DNA of 44,937 nt from positions 1 through 44,937 of IMG/VR virus record IMGVR_UViG_3300035156_000227, one strand, 5' to 3'. Position 1 is the first letter of the stretch; each line of letters starts with the position of its first letter. The position numbers were made by a program, and so were the translations under genes. This DNA comes from a virus. Shown here piece after piece: positions 2,286-44,820 of this stretch. A model generated the notes under the pieces. That model saw nothing but the letters and a program-made list of their open reading frames with translations. It did no database searches and was not told the origin of the DNA.

Positions 2286-3200
2286 ATGAACCGCAAATCA
2301 AATTTCACCGACGCAGAACGCGTTGCCGCCCTTAGCACCTACGATGGGGACGAGCGCACCGCCCCGGCCGCGTGGGACCTGGACGATACCGTCTATGCGC
2401 CTGACATGCACAAAACGACGTACGCCATGAATCCGGCCATTCTGTGCTGCGCGCTGTTCGGCGTCGGCAAAGGCACGGCAGTTATCGGCGCCGACGGAAA
2501 GAAGAAGCACATTCGCGAGTACATCAAGCGCACCTTCGCGACAACAAACGGTGCAAGCATTGAGTATCGCGGCGACGAGCTGTGCCAGGACGACCTGACC
2601 GTCCTTCTCGGCCTGCTGAACCAGCACGCCGGCTTTGCTACCAGCCTCGCCCTCGAGTTTTCCCCGTACACTTTCTGCTCCCAAATCGGCTGGTCTGACA
2701 GCGACTACAACGTTACTCGCCTGCAAGAGTGCCTGCTGCGCCTGCGCGGAGCCCTACTCATTGTGCGGACCGCCAAGAAGGAAGGCGATGCCGCAGAAAG
2801 CAAGCTGGCGCGCGCAATCGGCACCGGCTGGACGCTACAATTTTTGGCTCACTTCGCGTGGGAAGGCCTCTCGCGCTGGTCCGTGCAGCTTGACCCGCGC
2901 ATCAGCCTGCTGTTCCCTGACGGCTTCAAGCCAACGTACCTCATCGCCGCGAAGCGTAAGGCTCTCACTGAAGGGCTCCAGACCTGGCTGTACGGGTATG
3001 TCGAAGCCAACACGTGCACCTATGCAGTGCCCCTCGAGACCCTGCAAAAAGCCTGCGGCTCCACTGCTCCGGCGAAGGAGTTTGCCCGCCAGGTGCGCGA
3101 AGCTTTGCCAAAGTTGGCAGCAGTCGGCGCCGTCCGCCTAACGTCGAACGTCAAGAACGGCAAGGTAGCGATTTTCAAGGTCTCGTCCGCCCGCGCTTAA
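2286..3200 (+). CDS. TrfA-like replication initiator protein
   Basis: A 304-residue protein resembling the C-terminal two thirds of the plasmid RK2 initiator TrfA. Shared features in order are an inhibitor/charged N-terminus, FSPYTFCSQIGWS (RK2 has a similar FTFYELCQDLGWS), RLQECLLRLRGAL, then DPRISLLF, RKALTEGLQTWLYGY, YAVPLETLQKACGS and a final REALPKLAAVGAV. Such proteins have two winged-helix domains, bind iterons, open the origin and load host helicase. It lacks the long variable N-terminus of RK2 TrfA. The start at 2286 has AAGGAG upstream. Four direct repeats lie directly upstream. This suggests theta-type replication from a plasmid-like origin, either during lytic growth or as an episome (inference). 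Confidence 0.8.
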   Translation: MNRKSNFTDAERVAALSTYDGDERTAPAAWDLDDTVYAPDMHKTTYAMNPAILCCALFGVGKGTAVIGADGKKKHIREYIKRTFATTNGASIEYRGDELCQDDLTVLLGLLNQHAGFATSLALEFSPYTFCSQIGWSDSDYNVTRLQECLLRLRGALLIVRTAKKEGDAAESKLARAIGTGWTLQFLAHFAWEGLSRWSVQLDPRISLLFPDGFKPTYLIAAKRKALTEGLQTWLYGYVEANTCTYAVPLETLQKACGSTAPAKEFARQVREALPKLAAVGAVRLTSNVKNGKVAIFKVSSARA

Positions 3201-3217
3201 CCCGGCCCCTGGTAATG

Positions 3218-3244
3218 AAGGCTCCTTTCGAGGGGCCTTTTTTT
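3218..3244 (+). terminator. Terminator after rep
   Basis: AAGGCTCC/GGGGCCTT stem with a short loop, followed by a run of T. A TTGCGCG cassette begins six bases later. Confidence 0.8.
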
Positions 3245-3249
3245 CATTG

Positions 3250-3293
3250 TTGCGCGTCCTTGCGCGTGGTTTTCGTCGGTCGCTCCCTATACG
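3250..3293 (+). promoter_or_regulatory. TTGCGCG promoter cassette A
   Basis: Tandem TTGCGCGTCC / TTGCGCGTGG (period 10), then TTTTCGTC and a -10-like TATACG at 3288-3293, 38 bp from the first T of the box. The -35 position lies inside the repeat and is not TTGACA-like, pointing to an activator- or repressor-bound promoter. A GAGC-loop-GCTC hairpin (3298-3310) would sit at the mRNA 5' end. Drives the terminase paralogue. Confidence 0.65.
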
Positions 3294-3337
3294 ACTCGAG
3301 CACTTAGCTCGCACACACAACAACAAGGGAGCCCTAC

Positions 3338-4510
3338 ATGAACGCACCAGCAGCAAACACCGCAACCTTCGTCAAAACCCTAACAAAGGTCGACAACGCA
3401 AGGCTATATCGCCTGACCCGGCCTGTTGTTATCTACGACGGCGGATTCCGAGGCACTACGGACTACGTCGTCGTTAGTAAGTGGGTCCTGCCCGCCGTAT
3501 CGTTCGCCGGCCAGCCCGTCATCCCGGCAAAGGACCACGTTTCCGTTTGGGCTTCCGACGAGGCAGGCTGCCTGTTCAACGCGTCGCCCCTTGCTCGACT
3601 GACTGGCTCCGAACACACTCACGAGGACGCGCTGGCAGCAATCGGCTATGCCACTGTTGTCGAATCTTGGGACACGTCCACTGACGGTACGTCCGTCGCC
3701 CGTTTTGAGGTGCGTGACGGCGTTCTTCATGTCCTCGGCTTCGACTACACGCCGCCTGCCCCCCTGCCGCAGCCTAGCTTCATGGCGTACTGCCAAGCCA
3801 TTTACCCTGACCGCGACTGGCCGCAACACTTCGAGATATGCTCCGAAGCTGTCGAAGCGATGCTCGCAGGGGAGTCGACCCGCGTGCAGACCAATGCACC
3901 GCCGCAGCATGGGACCACGACGTTGGCGCTGCTGAGCCTTGCTTACGCAATCGGCTGTAACCCAAGCAACCGGTACCTTTATGCGACATACAGTCAGGGG
4001 CTGGCTGAGACCCTGCGCGACCTGGTCATCCGTATTCTAACTAGCCGGGCGCACCAAGACCTGTTTCCTTCTACGGCCCTTGTCCACATCTCGGCGAACG
4101 AACTAATGACGAACAAAGGTGGGCACATCGTCTTTGCGAATCCCGGCTTCGGTGGCACTGGCTGTTCTTTCGACGGAGTCGTCATTGACGACCCGTTCAG
4201 CGATTTAGACCAGCGCCTGGATGAGGACACCCTCGCCGGGTTCGACTCATTCTTTGGCGGCGCAGTGCTCCCGCACATCACACCCGCGACTTGGGTACAC
4301 CTGCTGAACGCCCGCCTCGGCTCAGACTGGAAGTATGCAAATGGAGAGTGGGAGTGCTTAGACTTTCCGGCGCTGTCCGGGGAAGAGCTGGCACTGTGGC
4401 CTGAGCACCAAAATCGTAAGCTGCTGCGTGCAACAAGGGACGCTATACCTCCGTACTTCTGGGAGCTGTACTTCCAGCAGAACGTCGACGGCTTCAAACA
4501 GTATATGTGA
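3338..4510 (+). CDS. Terminase ATPase-domain paralogue, Walker A lysine lost, no nuclease
   Basis: 390 residues. From about 147 to the end it aligns collinearly with the ATPase half of this phage's own large terminase (20371-21861): PPQHGTTT (188-195) versus PPQHGKTR, ATYSQ versus ATYAQ, GFGGTG versus AGGTG, VVIDD (281-285) versus IILDD, WVHLLNARL versus WIHIINTRW, and LALWPE versus EALWPE. It stops at QQNVDG, where the terminase has QQRPVP just before its nuclease domain. The Walker A lysine is threonine (T193), while the Walker B acidic pair is kept. The first ~145 residues are a domain I do not recognise. It is transcribed alone from its own cassette, far from the packaging genes. Roles could include regulating packaging, inhibiting another phage's terminase, or ATP-independent DNA binding (all inference). 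RBS GGGAG precedes the start. Confidence 0.8.
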   Translation: MNAPAANTATFVKTLTKVDNARLYRLTRPVVIYDGGFRGTTDYVVVSKWVLPAVSFAGQPVIPAKDHVSVWASDEAGCLFNASPLARLTGSEHTHEDALAAIGYATVVESWDTSTDGTSVARFEVRDGVLHVLGFDYTPPAPLPQPSFMAYCQAIYPDRDWPQHFEICSEAVEAMLAGESTRVQTNAPPQHGTTTLALLSLAYAIGCNPSNRYLYATYSQGLAETLRDLVIRILTSRAHQDLFPSTALVHISANELMTNKGGHIVFANPGFGGTGCSFDGVVIDDPFSDLDQRLDEDTLAGFDSFFGGAVLPHITPATWVHLLNARLGSDWKYANGEWECLDFPALSGEELALWPEHQNRKLLRATRDAIPPYFWELYFQQNVDGFKQYM

Positions 4511-4513
4511 GCT

Positions 4514-4533
4514 AAGCCCCTTCGGGGGCTTTT
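4514..4533 (+). terminator. Terminator after the terminase paralogue
   Basis: AAGCCCC-TTCG-GGGGCTTTT hairpin with T tract. The next promoter cassette begins 8 bases later. Confidence 0.85.
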
Positions 4534-11931: not shown

Positions 11932-12843
11932 TTAGTTACTTGCAACAGGAGCCCGCCATTTCGTTTTGTCGACTTGAGCTTCTTTTACAATCCGCTCGAC
12001 TAGCGGCATGTCTCGGCCAAAGACAAAGTTTTGGCACTGAGCCGCGACCGCAATGTTCGTATCACGCACCTGGTCCCGTGTCAGCGTCCAATTAACCATG
12101 CCGTGGCCTGGTTCGGTAACTAGGAGGACACTCGACTGAGACAGCGGAAGCGTTTTAAAAATACCCGGGGTCGTGATGCCGACACCTCGAAGCGGGTTCG
12201 GGACATGGTCCGGCCCAGCAATCAAACAGAACGGGCTGTCGGTTGTAATGAACGAAGTTCTACTGTCAGGCCGGCGTGCTATCACCCAGTCCATCCCGTA
12301 GAGCGTTTCCGCAATCTGAGGTGATAGATTTAGCATGATGCGCAAAGTGACGTGGCGGTCCATCTCAATGCCAAGTTGGGCAGCTATCTGAGCCTCGGTC
12401 ATAGGCTCTCCGTTCGATGGCTTGGGAGCCATCCGCACAAGCTTTTGGGTAAGAACCGAGCTAAGCGATTCAGCAGTATTTTGGAATGCCGGGGTACGCG
12501 TGTGCTGGAATGCGACGTACAGAGCCAGTGCATACCTCTCGTCCCCATCAATCTCCCGGCCAGCGTCGATTTTTCCAATAACCGGCAGTGCGGCCGACTC
12601 AATGTCACCGAGCGCTCGCTCTACATCGAAATTAAGGTCACCATCCACCTCGAATGCATAGTAATCCTTGATATGCGCTACATCCAACGGACGTTGTCGG
12701 TCCCGGTAGGCGTTCCGCGCTCTATCGTATAAAGCTAGGCGGTCAGCTCCTGCTTGGCAAAATCCAGCCAGATAGCCGCGGGGCACGTAGTGATGTTTGC
12801 GAGGAGTCCCTTTGGGGTATTTAGGCGGAGTGTTGCCAGTCAT
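11932..12843 (-). CDS. DUF4238 family protein
   Basis: 303 residues. HHYVPRGYLAGF near the N-terminus (17-28) is the signature of DUF4238 proteins; the rest of the family pattern, FITTDSPF and a C-terminal NFVFGRD block, is also present. The function is unknown; members occur in bacteria and in mobile elements, and some are suspected to act in defence. A minus-strand TATAAT (12892-12887) lies upstream and overlaps a divergent plus-strand promoter, so this gene and the plus-strand 13001 gene share a control region. Likely lysogenic cargo. Confidence 0.75.
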   Translation of the reverse strand: MTGNTPPKYPKGTPRKHHYVPRGYLAGFCQAGADRLALYDRARNAYRDRQRPLDVAHIKDYYAFEVDGDLNFDVERALGDIESAALPVIGKIDAGREIDGDERYALALYVAFQHTRTPAFQNTAESLSSVLTQKLVRMAPKPSNGEPMTEAQIAAQLGIEMDRHVTLRIMLNLSPQIAETLYGMDWVIARRPDSRTSFITTDSPFCLIAGPDHVPNPLRGVGITTPGIFKTLPLSQSSVLLVTEPGHGMVNWTLTRDQVRDTNIAVAAQCQNFVFGRDMPLVERIVKEAQVDKTKWRAPVASN

Positions 12844-15539: not shown

Positions 15540-16260
15540 ACACCTAGAGAGCGGCGCACCAGGTAACTGGCAGAGCCTGGCAACAGTTGCCCGGGCAGTA
15601 CCTGGCAACAGCGGGCCCGAGTGCCTGGCAGCAGTTGCCCGACGTCGGAGACGCCGGACAACAGCACACGGGGCAGAGCCTGGCACCAGCAGCCGTAGCC
15701 CCTGGCACCAGCGCCCGGGCGCAATCATTGGCAGCAGCTAACCCTTTGATAACAGCGGAGCTATTGGCAGCAAGCCGCCGGCGCTTGATAGCAGCGCAGC
15801 TATTGAGAGCAGCGGAGCGACCAGGCAACAGAAGCCGGCGCGGCAGTTGACCAGGATGCAGCGGGCAAGGCAGCACCAGCACACCAGACCGGCGCAGCAT
15901 TTGCACACTTTGGCAAGCATTCGACGCGTTTGCACACTTTGGCAGGCATGCGCGGAACATTGGGAGCAATAAGGCGGAGCACCAGGGCGCGGAGCTAATC
16001 GGACAGCCGAACAGGCGGACAGCGTGACAAGCGGGCGCCGCACTCCAGGACAGCGAAGCAGGCGCCGGCCTGGTAACGCATCCGAGCAGAGCGAGCGCCA
16101 GGCACTCAAGCAAGACAAGCGGGCGCCGCACTCAAGCACAGCGCACCAGCGCGCGGAGCTTGCCGGCGCACTGTTGCCAGGTACTCGAGCAAGCCAAGCA
16201 GGCGCCGACCTGGCAAGCCAAGCCGGACAGGATGCAGCCGCCGAGCGCAGCGAGGGGGCG
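15540..16260. repeat. T-poor, repeat-rich non-coding region
   Basis: No gene is supported for about 1 kb (15438-16460). The plus strand has very little T (roughly 4-6 per 60 bases over long stretches). CCTGGCANCAG recurs at 15576, 15601, 15624, 15679 and 15701, about every 22-25 bp. TTGCACACTTTGGCARGCAT occurs at 15901 and 15929. A perfect 20-base repeat, GACAAGCGGGCGCCGCACTC, is at 16026 and 16114. The open frames here are short, overlapping and lack ribosome sites. Possible roles include an origin or packaging site, a structural RNA, or decayed sequence; none is shown. Confidence 0.55.
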
Positions 16261-18074: not shown

Positions 18075-18150
18075 TCCGCAATAGCTCAGCTGGCAGAGCA
18101 GCGCCCTGTTAAGGCGCGGGTCCTACGTTCGAACCGTAGTTGCGGAGCCA
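18075..18150 (+). tRNA. tRNA-Asn(GUU)
   Basis: Acceptor TCCGCAA/TTGCGGA, D-arm AGCTC...GAGC, anticodon loop CTGTTAA, normal T-arm with TTCGAAC, encoded CCA. Fully canonical. Confidence 0.93.
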
Positions 18151-18151
18151 A

Positions 18152-18226
18152 GCCTCGTTAGCTCAGTGGTAGAGCAATCCCCTGTCCAGGGATACGTCGT
18201 CGGTTCGATTCCGGCACGGGGCGCCA
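18152..18226 (+). tRNA. tRNA-Asp(GUC)
   Basis: One base after tRNA-Asn. Acceptor GCCTCGT/ACGGGGC (one G-U), D-arm GCTC...GAGC, anticodon stem ATCCC/GGGAT with loop CTGTCCA, T-arm GTCGG-TTCGATT-CCGGC, encoded CCA. Confidence 0.92.
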
Positions 18227-18308
18227 AGTTTTCGGGAGTTGCGGGTTGGAATCCCGCAAAAGGGAGCAGTCCCTTGATGGAGTAATCGCTAACTCGCCTG
18301 ACCCTTAT

Positions 18309-18385
18309 ATACCGTTAGACAAGTGGTTAAGTCATCACCCTTTCAAGGTGACATTCGCTCGGTTCGATTCCGGCACGGTATGCCA
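18309..18385 (+). tRNA. tRNA-Glu(UUC)
   Basis: Acceptor ATACCGT/ACGGTAT, D-stem GAC/GTC, anticodon stem TCACC/GGTGA with loop CTTTCAA, encoded CCA. The T-stem is slightly imperfect (C opposite C at its base plus one U-G). Starts 82 nt after tRNA-Asp; the spacer has a few hairpins but no tRNA. Possibly somewhat degraded but probably functional. Confidence 0.85.
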
Positions 18386-19919: not shown

Positions 19920-20384
19920 ATGCGAACCGACGCTGTTGTTCCGCGCGAGCTCGACGCAGCTGAGCGCGCCCTGGCCGTCATCGAGATGCGCCGGCAGTTC
20001 CTCACATTCGACGAAATTAGCAAGCGCCTTGGCATCTCCCGCCAAGCATGTCATGCCGCTTACAAGAAAGCCATCAAAGCCGTCCTGAAGGAGCAGAAGG
20101 CTGGCTCTGCGCAGCTGCTTGCCCGCGAGCTGGACACGCTCGAAAACATGCGCCGCGTAGCACTTGAGATTGTGAACGACAAGGACGCTGACCCGAAGGA
20201 CCGATTGGTCGCTATGAAGCAGGTGACTGACAACGTCATCGCCGTCACCAAGATGACCGGCATCTCTGCGCCAATCTCCATCGAGACGAAGAACCTCTCG
20301 GTTACAGCAGACCTGACGCCGGACCAGATGAAGCGCATGGCCACTCTGCTGAATGAAGCACATCTCGTCAATGGCGACGACTAA
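19920..20384 (+). CDS. terS: Terminase small subunit
   Basis: 154 residues. The N-terminal helix-turn-helix (TFDEISKRLGISRQACHAAYKKA, 29-51) is the DNA-recognition domain expected of TerS, followed by a long helix for oligomerisation (ELDTLENMRRVALEIVNDKD). The gene overlaps terL, the usual arrangement. It would recognise the packaging site, probably in the gap just upstream. The ribosome site is weak. Confidence 0.75.
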   Translation: MRTDAVVPRELDAAERALAVIEMRRQFLTFDEISKRLGISRQACHAAYKKAIKAVLKEQKAGSAQLLARELDTLENMRRVALEIVNDKDADPKDRLVAMKQVTDNVIAVTKMTGISAPISIETKNLSVTADLTPDQMKRMATLLNEAHLVNGDD

Positions 20385-21861
20385 AGCCCCCAAGCGTAAG
20401 GGGGGCAAGCTCTCCGACGCCGATGCAGCGCGCCTGTTCTTACAGCGCGCTCGGGAGCATTTCCCGACCTACTGCGTGCTTATGGACCCGGGGTATCAGC
20501 TCGCCCCACATTTGCGCATCCTGCATGACAAGCTGGAGCGCATCGAAAAAGGCCTGAGCAAGCGGGACCAGACCTTCATGCCACCGCAGCACGGGAAGAC
20601 GCGCACAGCGTCCGAGCTGTTTGCTGCCTGGTACCTCGGCCGGCACCCTGACAAGAACCTCATCTTTGCAACCTACGCCCAGCCACTGGCTGACACGCGA
20701 GGCTCTGCAATCCGTGCGCTTATTCAGGACCCGAAGCACCAGGCAGTTTTCCCCGAATGCCGCATCACCCAGGACAGCAACAGCAAGGCCGAGTTTGTGT
20801 TCACCAAAGGCGGTGGCCTGGTCGCACTCGGACGCAAAGCTGGTGGTACCGGTCGACGCGCCGACGGCATCATCCTCGACGACGTAATCAAGGACCAGGA
20901 AGACGCCGACAGCGATGCTTCGAGGCTCGAGGTTAAGAACTTCTACTCCGGCGTCGTCATCACGCGTCTGCACAACGACACGTGGATTCACATTATCAAC
21001 ACGCGCTGGCACCTGGATGACCTGTCCGGCTGGACGCTGGAAGAGCATCACCACGAGAACTGGAACGTGCTGACCCTCGAGGCCGTTTGCGAGGAGCACA
21101 ACCCTGCGAACGACCCGCTTGGGCGCCAGTACGGCGAAGCACTCTGGCCCGAGCGTCAGAGTCTCGAGCTGCTCATGGCGAAGAAAAACTCCGGCACTCC
21201 GCGGCAATGGTCAGCGCTCTACCAACAGCGCCCTGTCCCAGGTGACGGCCTGACATTTAATCCCGCCTGGTTCACGAAGCGCCTGTCCGACATTGCAGAC
21301 CCGGGCGAGAAGCCCAGCCGCATTATCCAGTCATGGGACATTGCGCAGAAGGACAAGCAAATTAATGACCCCTCGGTGTGCACTACTTGGCACATCTACA
21401 AGCGCGGCGTCTACCTGGCGCACGTTTGGCGGGACCGACTGCTCTACCCAAAGCTCCGCAAGTTTGTAGTCTCGCACGCTTTGGAGCAGGGTGCGGACCT
21501 GCTGCTGGTCGAGGCTAAGAGCAATGGAGCTCCGCTCGTCGACGACCTGCTGGACGGGTGCAACATCCCAATCAAAGGCATAGACCCGGGCGGCGACAGC
21601 AAGCTCGTACGGGCACAGCGGGCTTCCTCGGTTCCGGAGGGTGGGCGGGTTGCTATACCTGAAGAGAAGACCACGTCGTGGCTCAGGGATTACCTGATTG
21701 AGCTGACAACCTTCCCTGCAAGCCGGCACGACGACCAGGTCGACTCGACCAGCCAGTTCCTGAACTGGTACCGCGAATACAGCCGAACTTCCAATCTCAC
21801 TGTCCTGGTAAGCCGTCAGACGCGCTCGACTAGGTCAGCCATCTCCGGATACCTACAATAA
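20371..21861 (+). CDS. terL: Terminase large subunit
   Basis: 496 residues. The ATPase domain has Walker A PPQHGKTR (71-78), Walker B IILDD (167-171), and the coupling region WIHIINTRWH. The nuclease domain has SWD (321-323), LLVEAKS (378-384) and RHDDQVDS (452-459), which supply the acidic metal-binding residues of the RNase H-like fold. It cuts concatemers and pumps DNA into the prohead through the portal. The start overlaps terS; a start 18 bp upstream is also open. The ATPase half is homologous to the early protein at 3338-4510. Confidence 0.93.
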   Translation: MATTKAPKRKGGKLSDADAARLFLQRAREHFPTYCVLMDPGYQLAPHLRILHDKLERIEKGLSKRDQTFMPPQHGKTRTASELFAAWYLGRHPDKNLIFATYAQPLADTRGSAIRALIQDPKHQAVFPECRITQDSNSKAEFVFTKGGGLVALGRKAGGTGRRADGIILDDVIKDQEDADSDASRLEVKNFYSGVVITRLHNDTWIHIINTRWHLDDLSGWTLEEHHHENWNVLTLEAVCEEHNPANDPLGRQYGEALWPERQSLELLMAKKNSGTPRQWSALYQQRPVPGDGLTFNPAWFTKRLSDIADPGEKPSRIIQSWDIAQKDKQINDPSVCTTWHIYKRGVYLAHVWRDRLLYPKLRKFVVSHALEQGADLLLVEAKSNGAPLVDDLLDGCNIPIKGIDPGGDSKLVRAQRASSVPEGGRVAIPEEKTTSWLRDYLIELTTFPASRHDDQVDSTSQFLNWYREYSRTSNLTVLVSRQTRSTRSAISGYLQ

Positions 21862-21863
21862 CG

Positions 21864-23129
21864 ATGAGCTCTCAAAAAACAAAAGCCATGCTTGCGGCAT
21901 TCGCAGGGCCGGACAACGACATTACGTTCCCTGCGCTGATGGGGTTTTACCGTCAGAACGACCCGACGCTACTGAGCCGCGGTGCAACCCTAAAGATGTA
22001 CGACCAGGTGTTGCAGGACCCGCACGCCCTCGCTGAACTTGGCAAACGTGCCCGAACCATCAATGCTTTTACCTGGGACGTGAAGCCGGGTGGCACTTCC
22101 CTGCGCGACAAGAAGGCTGCCGAAGCGATTAAAGAGCAGTTGTCCAATTTGCGACTGTCCCAAATCCGCGAGGAGATGCTGATTGCCGAGCTGGTCTACG
22201 GCTTCCAAGTGGGCGAAGCGATGTGGGAGCGAGACGACGACCGCATCGTCCTGACCGACATTCTGGCGCGCGACCAAATTCGTTTCAACATGGACGACCA
22301 GTACCGTATTCGTCTGCGCACCATGAAGGACATGGTGATTGGTGAGCACGTCCCGCCGCGCAAGTTCGTCTGGTCGACCTACGACCGTCGTAACAACGGC
22401 CCGTATGGTCGAGGCTTGGGCGCTGTCCTCTGGTGGCCCTGCCATTTCAAGCGAATCCTTAAGGGTTTCTGGCTTGATTACGCTGACAAATTTACTACTC
22501 AGTCGGTGATTGGCACGTCCCCTGAAGGCGCGACCCCTGAAATGCAGGAAAAGGTCCTCGCTGCGGCCGAAGCCATTGCTAACGGCGCTAAAGCAGCTGC
22601 CCTGCCCGCGGGGGCAACGCTCACCGGTCTGGAGTCCAAGCGCGCAGCCACCGAAGCTGTCTTTGCCAAGTTCATCGAGTACCTGGACGAGGAGATGAGC
22701 AAGGCAATCAATGGCGAAGCGATGACGACTAGCGGCAGCACGCACTCGTCGAAAGCTGCTGGGCAGGCGCACCAGGACGTGAACAAGATTCTCGCCACGT
22801 CGGATGCGGCCCGTAGCGACACGACCTTCAACACCACCGTCATTCCCTGGCTCACAGAGTTTAACCATCCAGGCGCCAAGCCGCCGAAGTTGGTTACGGA
22901 TACGAAGGACGCTGTCGACCTTAAAAAGGCGGCCGAAGTGGTGGCAGTCCTGGCTTCGGCCGGCTGGAAGCGCAAGAAGGAATGGATGGAGACGACCTTC
23001 GGTGGCGAGTTTGAGGAAGCTGAGGCAGCCGCCTCGGAGGAAACCCCTGACGATACGTCCAAAGGCAGCCCAGTCGGCGCCGGTTCAGCCCAGGTGAATG
23101 TAAATGCTGCAGCTGAAGCTAAGCGTTAA
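21864..23129 (+). CDS. Portal protein, Mu gp29-like (DUF935)
   Basis: 421 residues. The N-terminal MYDQVLQDPHALAELGKRARTINAFTWDV, the middle AELVYGFQVGEAMWE, VPPRKFVWST and GPYGRGLGAVLWW, and a GEAMTTSGSTHSSKAAGQAHQ region are typical of DUF935 portals of Mu-like phages. It forms the dodecameric ring at one capsid vertex that docks the terminase and tail. It begins 2 bp after terL. The tail after ~385 is acidic and probably disordered. Confidence 0.9.
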   Translation: MSSQKTKAMLAAFAGPDNDITFPALMGFYRQNDPTLLSRGATLKMYDQVLQDPHALAELGKRARTINAFTWDVKPGGTSLRDKKAAEAIKEQLSNLRLSQIREEMLIAELVYGFQVGEAMWERDDDRIVLTDILARDQIRFNMDDQYRIRLRTMKDMVIGEHVPPRKFVWSTYDRRNNGPYGRGLGAVLWWPCHFKRILKGFWLDYADKFTTQSVIGTSPEGATPEMQEKVLAAAEAIANGAKAAALPAGATLTGLESKRAATEAVFAKFIEYLDEEMSKAINGEAMTTSGSTHSSKAAGQAHQDVNKILATSDAARSDTTFNTTVIPWLTEFNHPGAKPPKLVTDTKDAVDLKKAAEVVAVLASAGWKRKKEWMETTFGGEFEEAEAAASEETPDDTSKGSPVGAGSAQVNVNAAAEAKR

Positions 23130-25153: not shown

Positions 25154-26092
25154 ATGTCCAACGAAGTAATGAGCCCGAGCCAACAAGCCCTCGGCATCAA
25201 CCTCCCACTGACCGACCATGCCCAAGGCTATACAAACGCCGAATTTGTGGGCGGGTTCCTTTTCCCTCGCGCACCGGTTGACGGTCGTCAGCGCCAGGTT
25301 CTGCAGTTCGGCAAAGAGTCGTTCAAGCTGTACAACGCTCGCCGCGCGCCTGGTTCGCCAACTAAGCGCATCAACGTCGGCTACGCAGGTAAGCCGTTTG
25401 CGCTGCTCCAAGACTCGCTGGAAGCGGTCGTGCCTCGTGAGAACCAACAGGAAGCAATGGGCACCCTCGGCCTTGACCTGGCTGCAGTGCACGTCGATAC
25501 CGTCATGCGCGCTCTGATGCTCGGCCTTGAAGTTGAGCAAGCGTCTATCGCACGTGATGCGGGTAACTACTCGGCCGGCGCGAAGTTTGCACCGACCGGT
25601 ACCGACAAATGGAGCGACCCTTCGAGCGACCCAATCGCGGACGTGTCGAATGCACGCGAAGTGGTGCGTAGCCGCATCGGCCAATATCCGAACACCCTGG
25701 TCCTCGGTGCCAAGGTGATGGCTGTCTTGAAGCGTCACCCGAAGATTGTCGACCGCATCAAGTTCACCCAGTTTGCCGCAGTCACGGAAGCGATGCTGGC
25801 CGAGCTGTTCGAAGTGGATACCGTCAAAGTGGCAAAGGCTGTCATGGCCGACGAAAACGACGTGTTCAGCGACATTTGGGGTACCGACGCAGTCTTGGCC
25901 TATGTGCCAAAGCAGGTGTCGAGCATCATCCAGCCGTCGTACGGCTACACCTACACCCTGAACGGCAACCCACTGGTCGAGAACCCGTACTGGGACAACA
26001 ACGCTAAAGCAGCGGTCTACGGTGTGACCTTCGAGCGTGCTCCGGTCATCACCGGCGCGGACAGCGCTTTCCTGCTGCAAGACCTGGTGTAA
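25154..26092 (+). CDS. Major capsid protein
   Basis: 312 residues, downstream of protease and decoration genes with a good AGGAG site. Motifs typical of HK97-fold capsid proteins of Mu-like siphophages: an N-arm then RRAPGSPTKRINVGY, a spine-helix region, ALMLGLEVEQ, YPNTLVLGAKVMAVLKRHP, and a C-terminal VYGVTFERAPVITGADSAFLLQ. Forms the icosahedral shell. Confidence 0.85.
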   Translation: MSNEVMSPSQQALGINLPLTDHAQGYTNAEFVGGFLFPRAPVDGRQRQVLQFGKESFKLYNARRAPGSPTKRINVGYAGKPFALLQDSLEAVVPRENQQEAMGTLGLDLAAVHVDTVMRALMLGLEVEQASIARDAGNYSAGAKFAPTGTDKWSDPSSDPIADVSNAREVVRSRIGQYPNTLVLGAKVMAVLKRHPKIVDRIKFTQFAAVTEAMLAELFEVDTVKVAKAVMADENDVFSDIWGTDAVLAYVPKQVSSIIQPSYGYTYTLNGNPLVENPYWDNNAKAAVYGVTFERAPVITGADSAFLLQDLV

Positions 26093-44810: not shown

Positions 44811-44820
44811 GGACTTAAAA
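44811..44820 (+). other. attR core (GGACTTAAAA)
   Basis: Identical to attL core 103-112. Marks the right end of the prophage; excision between the cores would rebuild the host tRNA-Leu. Confidence 0.9.

Follow-up and report, generated by a model that had tools for sequence, protein, structure and literature searches.

Genomic Setting of the Gene

The window, i.e., the whole stretch of 44,937 nt that was analyzed, is one IMG/VR record. A 10-base core, GGACTTAAAA, was found in it only at positions 103 and 44811 (103–112 and 44811–44820), and joining the outer flanks restored a tRNA-Leu(UAA) gene. As both att sites lie inside the window and the tRNA gene could be restored, the prophage is complete and spans 44.7 kb. 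Its insertion interrupts the tRNA-Leu(UAA) gene of the host in the anticodon loop, with GGACTTAAAA as the core. The prophage carries a complete tRNA-Leu(taa) of its own (1639–1723), which adjoins the integrase and probably replaces the broken host gene. When the intact tRNA-Leu sequence was used to look for the clade of the host, no match was obtained.

The gene treated here encodes P0001, a paralogue of the large terminase subunit (TerL) encoded by the same prophage (Table 1). Counted from the integrase, it forms the second unit and lies 3′ of a gene for a TrfA-like replication initiator. The first-pass annotation had described it as the sole gene of an early unit of its own, and this arrangement is borne out by a ribosome-binding site and by intrinsic terminators on both sides. 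Upstream lies the first copy of a 61-base element, D1, which occurs six times in the window, always on the plus strand (at 3232, 4524, 5626, 6764, 7613, and 9167). The other five copies stand ahead of further units, among them those for an RNA ligase and an ERF annealing protein. D1 holds 10-base repeats in tandem (type TTGCGCnTCC-TTGCGCGTGS). We assume that it may represent a family of phage-specific early promoters or operators, and we infer that the paralogue is expressed early. The gene is not adjacent to the genes for the small terminase subunit (TerS) and the portal protein; it lies 15.8 kb from the packaging genes, close to the 16 kb estimated before, and there the prophage's own TerL gene (from 20353) precedes the portal gene (from 21864). 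Its codon-phase GC (0.62/0.46/0.69) resembles that of the own TerL gene (0.62/0.44/0.75), and this TerL-like pattern is present in the N-terminal and the ATPase-like halves alike.

The TrfA-like neighbor (2286–3200; PF07042, E = 9e-11) is a plasmid-type replication initiator in the early region of a prophage. No relatives of it were found in the phage collection, and no related virus was reached through it.

Table 1. Features of the paralogue gene, its surroundings, and the packaging genes of the prophage.
Feature	Position	Strand	Remarks
Intrinsic terminator, upstream of paralogue gene	3217..3240	+	
Repeat element D1, copy 1 of six	3232..3292	+	Putative early promoter/operator
Ribosome-binding site GGGAG	3327..3331	+	From sequence
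TerL-like pseudo-ATPase paralogue P0001	3338..4510	+	ATG start, 390 aa; TerL homology, coding-like codon-phase GC
N-terminal domain, residues 1–145	3338..3772	+	Absent from TerL; predicted strand-rich, low confidence
DUF7572-like/phrog_2235-like stretch, residues 65–104	3530..3649	+	Below Pfam cut-off
TerL ATPase-fold domain, residues 145–382	3770..4483	+	Alignment, PHROG profile, AlphaFold2 model, structural matches
Degenerate Walker A PPQHGTTT, residues 188–195	3899..3922	+	Lys193 to Thr; Lys in 56/56 TerLs
Kept Walker B DGVVIDDP, residues 279–286	4172..4195	+	D284 and D285 invariant
Destroyed motif III/post-motif III block, residues 324–331	4307..4330	+	TRWHxDDL to ARLGSDW
Kept hinge helix pair (ALWPE...LL.A...W...QQ), residues 352–382	4391..4483	+	Last segment before missing nuclease
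Intrinsic terminator, downstream of paralogue gene	4514..4531	+	
Probable TerS	19920..20384	+	Candidate target of paralogue; phrog_645, E = 1.5e-12; role inferred from position directly before TerL
Own complete TerL (ATPase and nuclease)	20353..21861	+	502 aa; nearest relative of paralogue
Portal protein	21864..23129	+	Candidate target of paralogue; phrog_113, E = 8e-75

Homology to TerL and Predicted Fold

In a pairwise comparison, residues 148–382 of the paralogue align with residues 37–293 of the own TerL (30% identity, 115 bits, E = 8e-33), which confirms the suggested collinearity with the ATPase half of that protein. Profile searches against terminase families likewise returned the PHROG terminase large subunit profile phrog_38 (E = 2.5e-16). 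An AlphaFold2 model built from a 57-row alignment reached a pLDDT mostly above 90 over residues 150–270 and of 74–96 over most of residues 270–390; with the single sequence as input, pLDDT was only 36. The model superposes on TerLs, and a non-terminase fold was not seen. Its best matches in the PDB were the TerL of PhiV-1 (8dgc_E), T4 gp17, and the TerL of P74-26, and the named best matches among viral models were TerLs, too. With PhiV-1 (8dgc_E), T4 gp17 (2o0j, 3cpe), P74-26 (4znl), and D6E (5oea), the fold is shared over about 230–285 columns at a Foldseek probability of 1.00. The identities are only 10–13%, however, and the solved proteins are motors or ATPase domains with their active-site residues in place.

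The paralogue ends at the junction of ATPase and nuclease domain, as had been proposed. Its C-terminus (residue 390) lies eight residues past the hinge match, the C-terminal RNase H-like nuclease is absent, and the nuclease-region matches of the own TerL (Terminase_6C at residues 379–471, below its cut-off, and TIGR01630 at 339–471) lie beyond that point. The own TerL itself is complete, with Terminase_6N in addition to these two matches. A split TerL, of which the paralogue would be one half, was considered and ruled out, because the prophage is complete and holds an intact TerL elsewhere. With its own TerL (phrog_38/Terminase_6N plus Terminase_6C) the paralogue thus has in common the ATPase fold, collinearity, Walker B, the hinge helices, and its place as sister in the trees (see below). 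In contrast to it, the paralogue lacks the Walker A lysine, conserved arginines, the motif III block, and the nuclease, possesses an extra N-terminal domain, and occupies an early instead of a late position.

Loss of Catalytic Residues

Residues were compared in an alignment (A3) of 56 TerLs, to which IMG/VR contributed 55 ATPase domains and the prophage its own TerL. The reported replacement of PPQHGKTR by PPQHGTTT was verified, and no basic residue near Thr193 could replace the lost lysine. A sequencing error was rejected as its cause, because the codon ACC differs from AAG at two positions and the loss extends to other motifs. The Walker B acids are kept, again as reported, with the IDD intact. 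The first-pass annotation was right about the loss of Walker A but understated the extent of the decay, since conserved arginines and motif III are also gone. Arg231 is replaced by Ile (R or K in 55 of the 56 TerLs), Arg276 by Cys (R or K in 51/56), and Arg313 by His, at a column that holds Arg in all 56. In motif III, T-R-W-H has become A-R-L-G, with the loss of T325, W327, and H328, and the following DDLxG is deleted. Mutations of this coupling motif in T4 abolish ATPase turnover and packaging (PMC9958956), and hydrolysis by the D6E enzyme requires a trans-arginine finger (PMC5727402); by analogy, R276 or R313 might correspond to such a finger. The loss of the Walker A lysine, the arginines, and motif III supports the earlier suggestion that the protein is probably inactive as an ATPase, and ATP binding via the kept Walker B aspartate pair is unlikely.

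As judged from the alignment, loss is heaviest at the polar conserved columns: among the 20 polar columns with at least 90% conservation the paralogue keeps eight and the own TerL 18, as compared to 20 and 27 of the 35 other conserved columns. The hinge segment, for which helices are predicted at residues 360–369 and 372–379 (AlphaFold2), is among the best kept parts. Between residues 338 and 386, 12 of 18 conserved columns are retained versus 10 of 31 between residues 263 and 337 (Fisher p = 0.036), a modest statistic from a post hoc test on a segment whose role is also structural.

The N-Terminal Domain

The N-terminal domain, which had been called unknown, is indeed separate from TerL, but there is a weak lead to its identity. 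Residues 65–104 resemble the C-terminal half of the DUF7572 profile (PF24457; E = 2.8e-5) with 24.8 bits against a curated cut-off of 27, and also match phrog_2235, labeled a minor tail protein (E = 0.0034). In contrast to members of these families, the resemblance is below the cut-off, covers 40 residues only, and is found in an early gene fused to a TerL ATPase fold. No DUF7572 match was detected in the comparison phages, a result that says little because the controls scored below the cut-off or not at all. Residues 1–145 match no other ORF of the window, no strong relatives of the domain were found in phages or IMG/VR contigs, and its structural model is poor (pLDDT mostly below 60, AlphaFold2).

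Origin and Search for Relatives

Two maximum-likelihood trees were calculated, one with 64 rows and one with 40 rows that include the TerLs most similar to the own TerL. The paralogue pairs with the own TerL in both (support 100/97 and 95/96, respectively), although the placement of so long a branch, 4.1–4.3 changes per column compared to 0.83–0.84 for the own TerL, is unsure. The two proteins also have the segment before motif III, TW(V/I)H(L/I)(L/I)N, in common, as well as PPQHG, where the other 55 of the 56 TerLs in A3 carry PPRHG or similar; outside A3, PPQHG was seen in the TerLs of two phages, XM1 and Stenotrophomonas B2. The pairing with the own TerL on an approximately fivefold longer branch suggests an old, lineage-specific paralogue that turned into a pseudoenzyme. 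On the simplest reading, the sequence was duplicated long ago, or else captured from a close relative, and has changed fast since then. Recent truncation of TerL is ruled out by the identity of 30% and the long branch.

With the search sensitivity applied, 50,697 phage records, 72,556 plasmid records, IMG/VR contigs, and GTDB genomes yielded no full-length relative of the paralogue; for IMG/VR and GTDB, the scans rest on short exact peptide patterns, which can miss distant relatives, and many of the records are fragments. Searches with the full protein yielded ordinary TerLs or nothing, so the homologues that keep the lysine and a nuclease are not orthologues of the paralogue. A scan of IMG/VR with the alignment of paralogue and own TerL recovered no orthologue either. 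DNA encoding PPQHGTT was present in 12 stretches of IMG/VR contigs, and these matches are due to chance, as none lies in a terminase-like frame. Related viruses were found by their capsid proteins and TerLs and then searched as whole records. None of 50 IMG/VR records that bear related TerLs showed an additional, truncated copy: in 49, a single TerL match lies within a frame of 470–690 aa, and the exception has three pieces in one frame of 876 aa, which likely contains an intein. The PADLOC defense models did not match P0001. In agreement with the earlier statement that no such family has been described, none was matched in the libraries searched.

Possible Function of the Paralogue

The kept fold, the lost catalysis, the missing nuclease, the added domain, the early position, and the presence of an intact TerL elsewhere fit a protein that mimics TerL in binding. 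We tentatively propose, preferring this to other explanations while regarding it as far from certain, that the paralogue is a TerL pseudoenzyme that acts as an ATP-independent binder and holds back packaging. According to this scenario, an ancient copy of the ATPase half of a TerL of the same lineage would have been joined to another N-terminal domain and brought under the early control element of the phage; ATP-binding and coupling residues would then have been lost, while the fold and the hinge helices were kept. The protein would contact a natural partner of TerL, which could be the portal, TerS, TerL itself, or DNA. Once bound, it might restrain packaging early in the cycle of the phage itself, up to the point at which late TerL is in excess, or alternatively restrain the packaging of related co-infecting phages; the partner, the direction, and the purpose of such inhibition are conjectural. 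The first-pass annotation had suggested a dominant-negative inhibitor of competing phages, a factor that times packaging, or a repurposed DNA-binding protein, and each of these roles may apply. In T4, the portal appears to be contacted by a helix-loop-helix associated with the hinge, and the corresponding peptide inhibits packaging (PMC9958956). Together with the good preservation of the hinge segment, this makes the packaging machinery the target that best suits the architecture of the paralogue. A parallel in the proposed function is offered by SaPI/PICI satellites, in which the reproduction of the phage is disturbed by a second factor at the stage of assembly or packaging (PMC5052747). In our case, the candidate inhibitor would have a TerL fold and be encoded by a complete phage. 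More broadly put, and with the same reserve, the duplicated motor could have given rise to an early-acting, ATP-independent mimic that competes for the partners of TerL, be they the packaging machinery of the phage itself or of its rivals, or NLR-like sensors with which the host detects TerL.

A somewhat unlikely alternative is that the N-terminal domain does the work, as an early regulator or in host interaction, and that the TerL fold is a DNA- or partner-binding scaffold unconnected with packaging. One third of the protein consists of this extra domain, which may be its active part; the weak DUF7572 match and the label of phrog_2235 provide some lead, and the gene adjoins the TrfA-like initiator and lies near other genes of DNA and RNA metabolism. 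However, the domain lacks strong relatives and is poorly modeled, and the TerL fold to which it is joined, being of the phage's own lineage, points toward packaging partners.

Rather improbable is a decoy that, as a dead mimic made early, would occupy host Avs proteins before late TerL appears without triggering them. The NLR-like Avs1–Avs4 systems recognize TerL, portal, or another phage protein (PMC12931631), and a decoy needs a mimic with the fold but without the function. The early position of the gene, ahead of late TerL, would suit this role. The best PDB match is PhiV-1 TerL in complex with Avs3, though this reflects the common fold, and the literature searched contains no known phage decoy of such a kind.

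It is quite improbable that the gene is a decaying relic, i.e., a fragment captured from an old TerL that no longer has a function. The loss of most catalytic motifs, the very long branch, and the lack of relatives would suit such a fate, but drift to this divergence should have brought stops or frameshifts, whereas 390 codons are open with gene-like codon-phase GC in both halves. The good ribosome-binding site, the two terminators, the shared element D1, and a structural core that is kept and predicted at high confidence argue against decay as well. Finally, even though short TerL ATPase-like proteins (235–313 aa) occur among the structural matches, it is very improbable that the paralogue is part of a split or alternative terminase with its nuclease elsewhere, or an ATPase with a deviant P-loop, given the complete own TerL in a prophage bounded by both att sites, the Lys to Thr exchange without a nearby basic substitute, and the loss of motif III and conserved arginines.

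If the proposed mimicry of TerL is true, the paralogue would represent a previously undescribed kind of regulator or decoy, namely a TerL pseudoenzyme; no pseudoenzymes derived from phage packaging motors are described in the libraries and literature searched. Binding to portal, TerS, or TerL would make it a naturally occurring inhibitor of packaging and a means to study the timing of packaging or the exclusion of rivals, and binding to Avs-type sensors a structural decoy against TerL-sensing immunity. Since a single small protein is concerned, the question is directly testable.

Other Features of the Prophage

A DUF4238 gene on the minus strand (11932–12843; Pfam E = 1e-34) also matches the PADLOC model DUF4238-Pers (E = 1e-13), and by these matches it is a possible prophage-encoded defense gene. 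Several families of imperfect direct repeats lie at 15569–16150. The major capsid protein (25154–26092) is closest to those of Chromohalobacter phage YPCBV-1, Rhizobium phage RR1-B, and Rhodobacter phage RcapMu (45–49%), whereas the own terminase is of the PsiM2/phrog_38 type, and from these differing affinities the head module is possibly mosaic. Genes for tRNA-Asn, tRNA-Asp, and tRNA-Glu form a cluster at 18075–18385.
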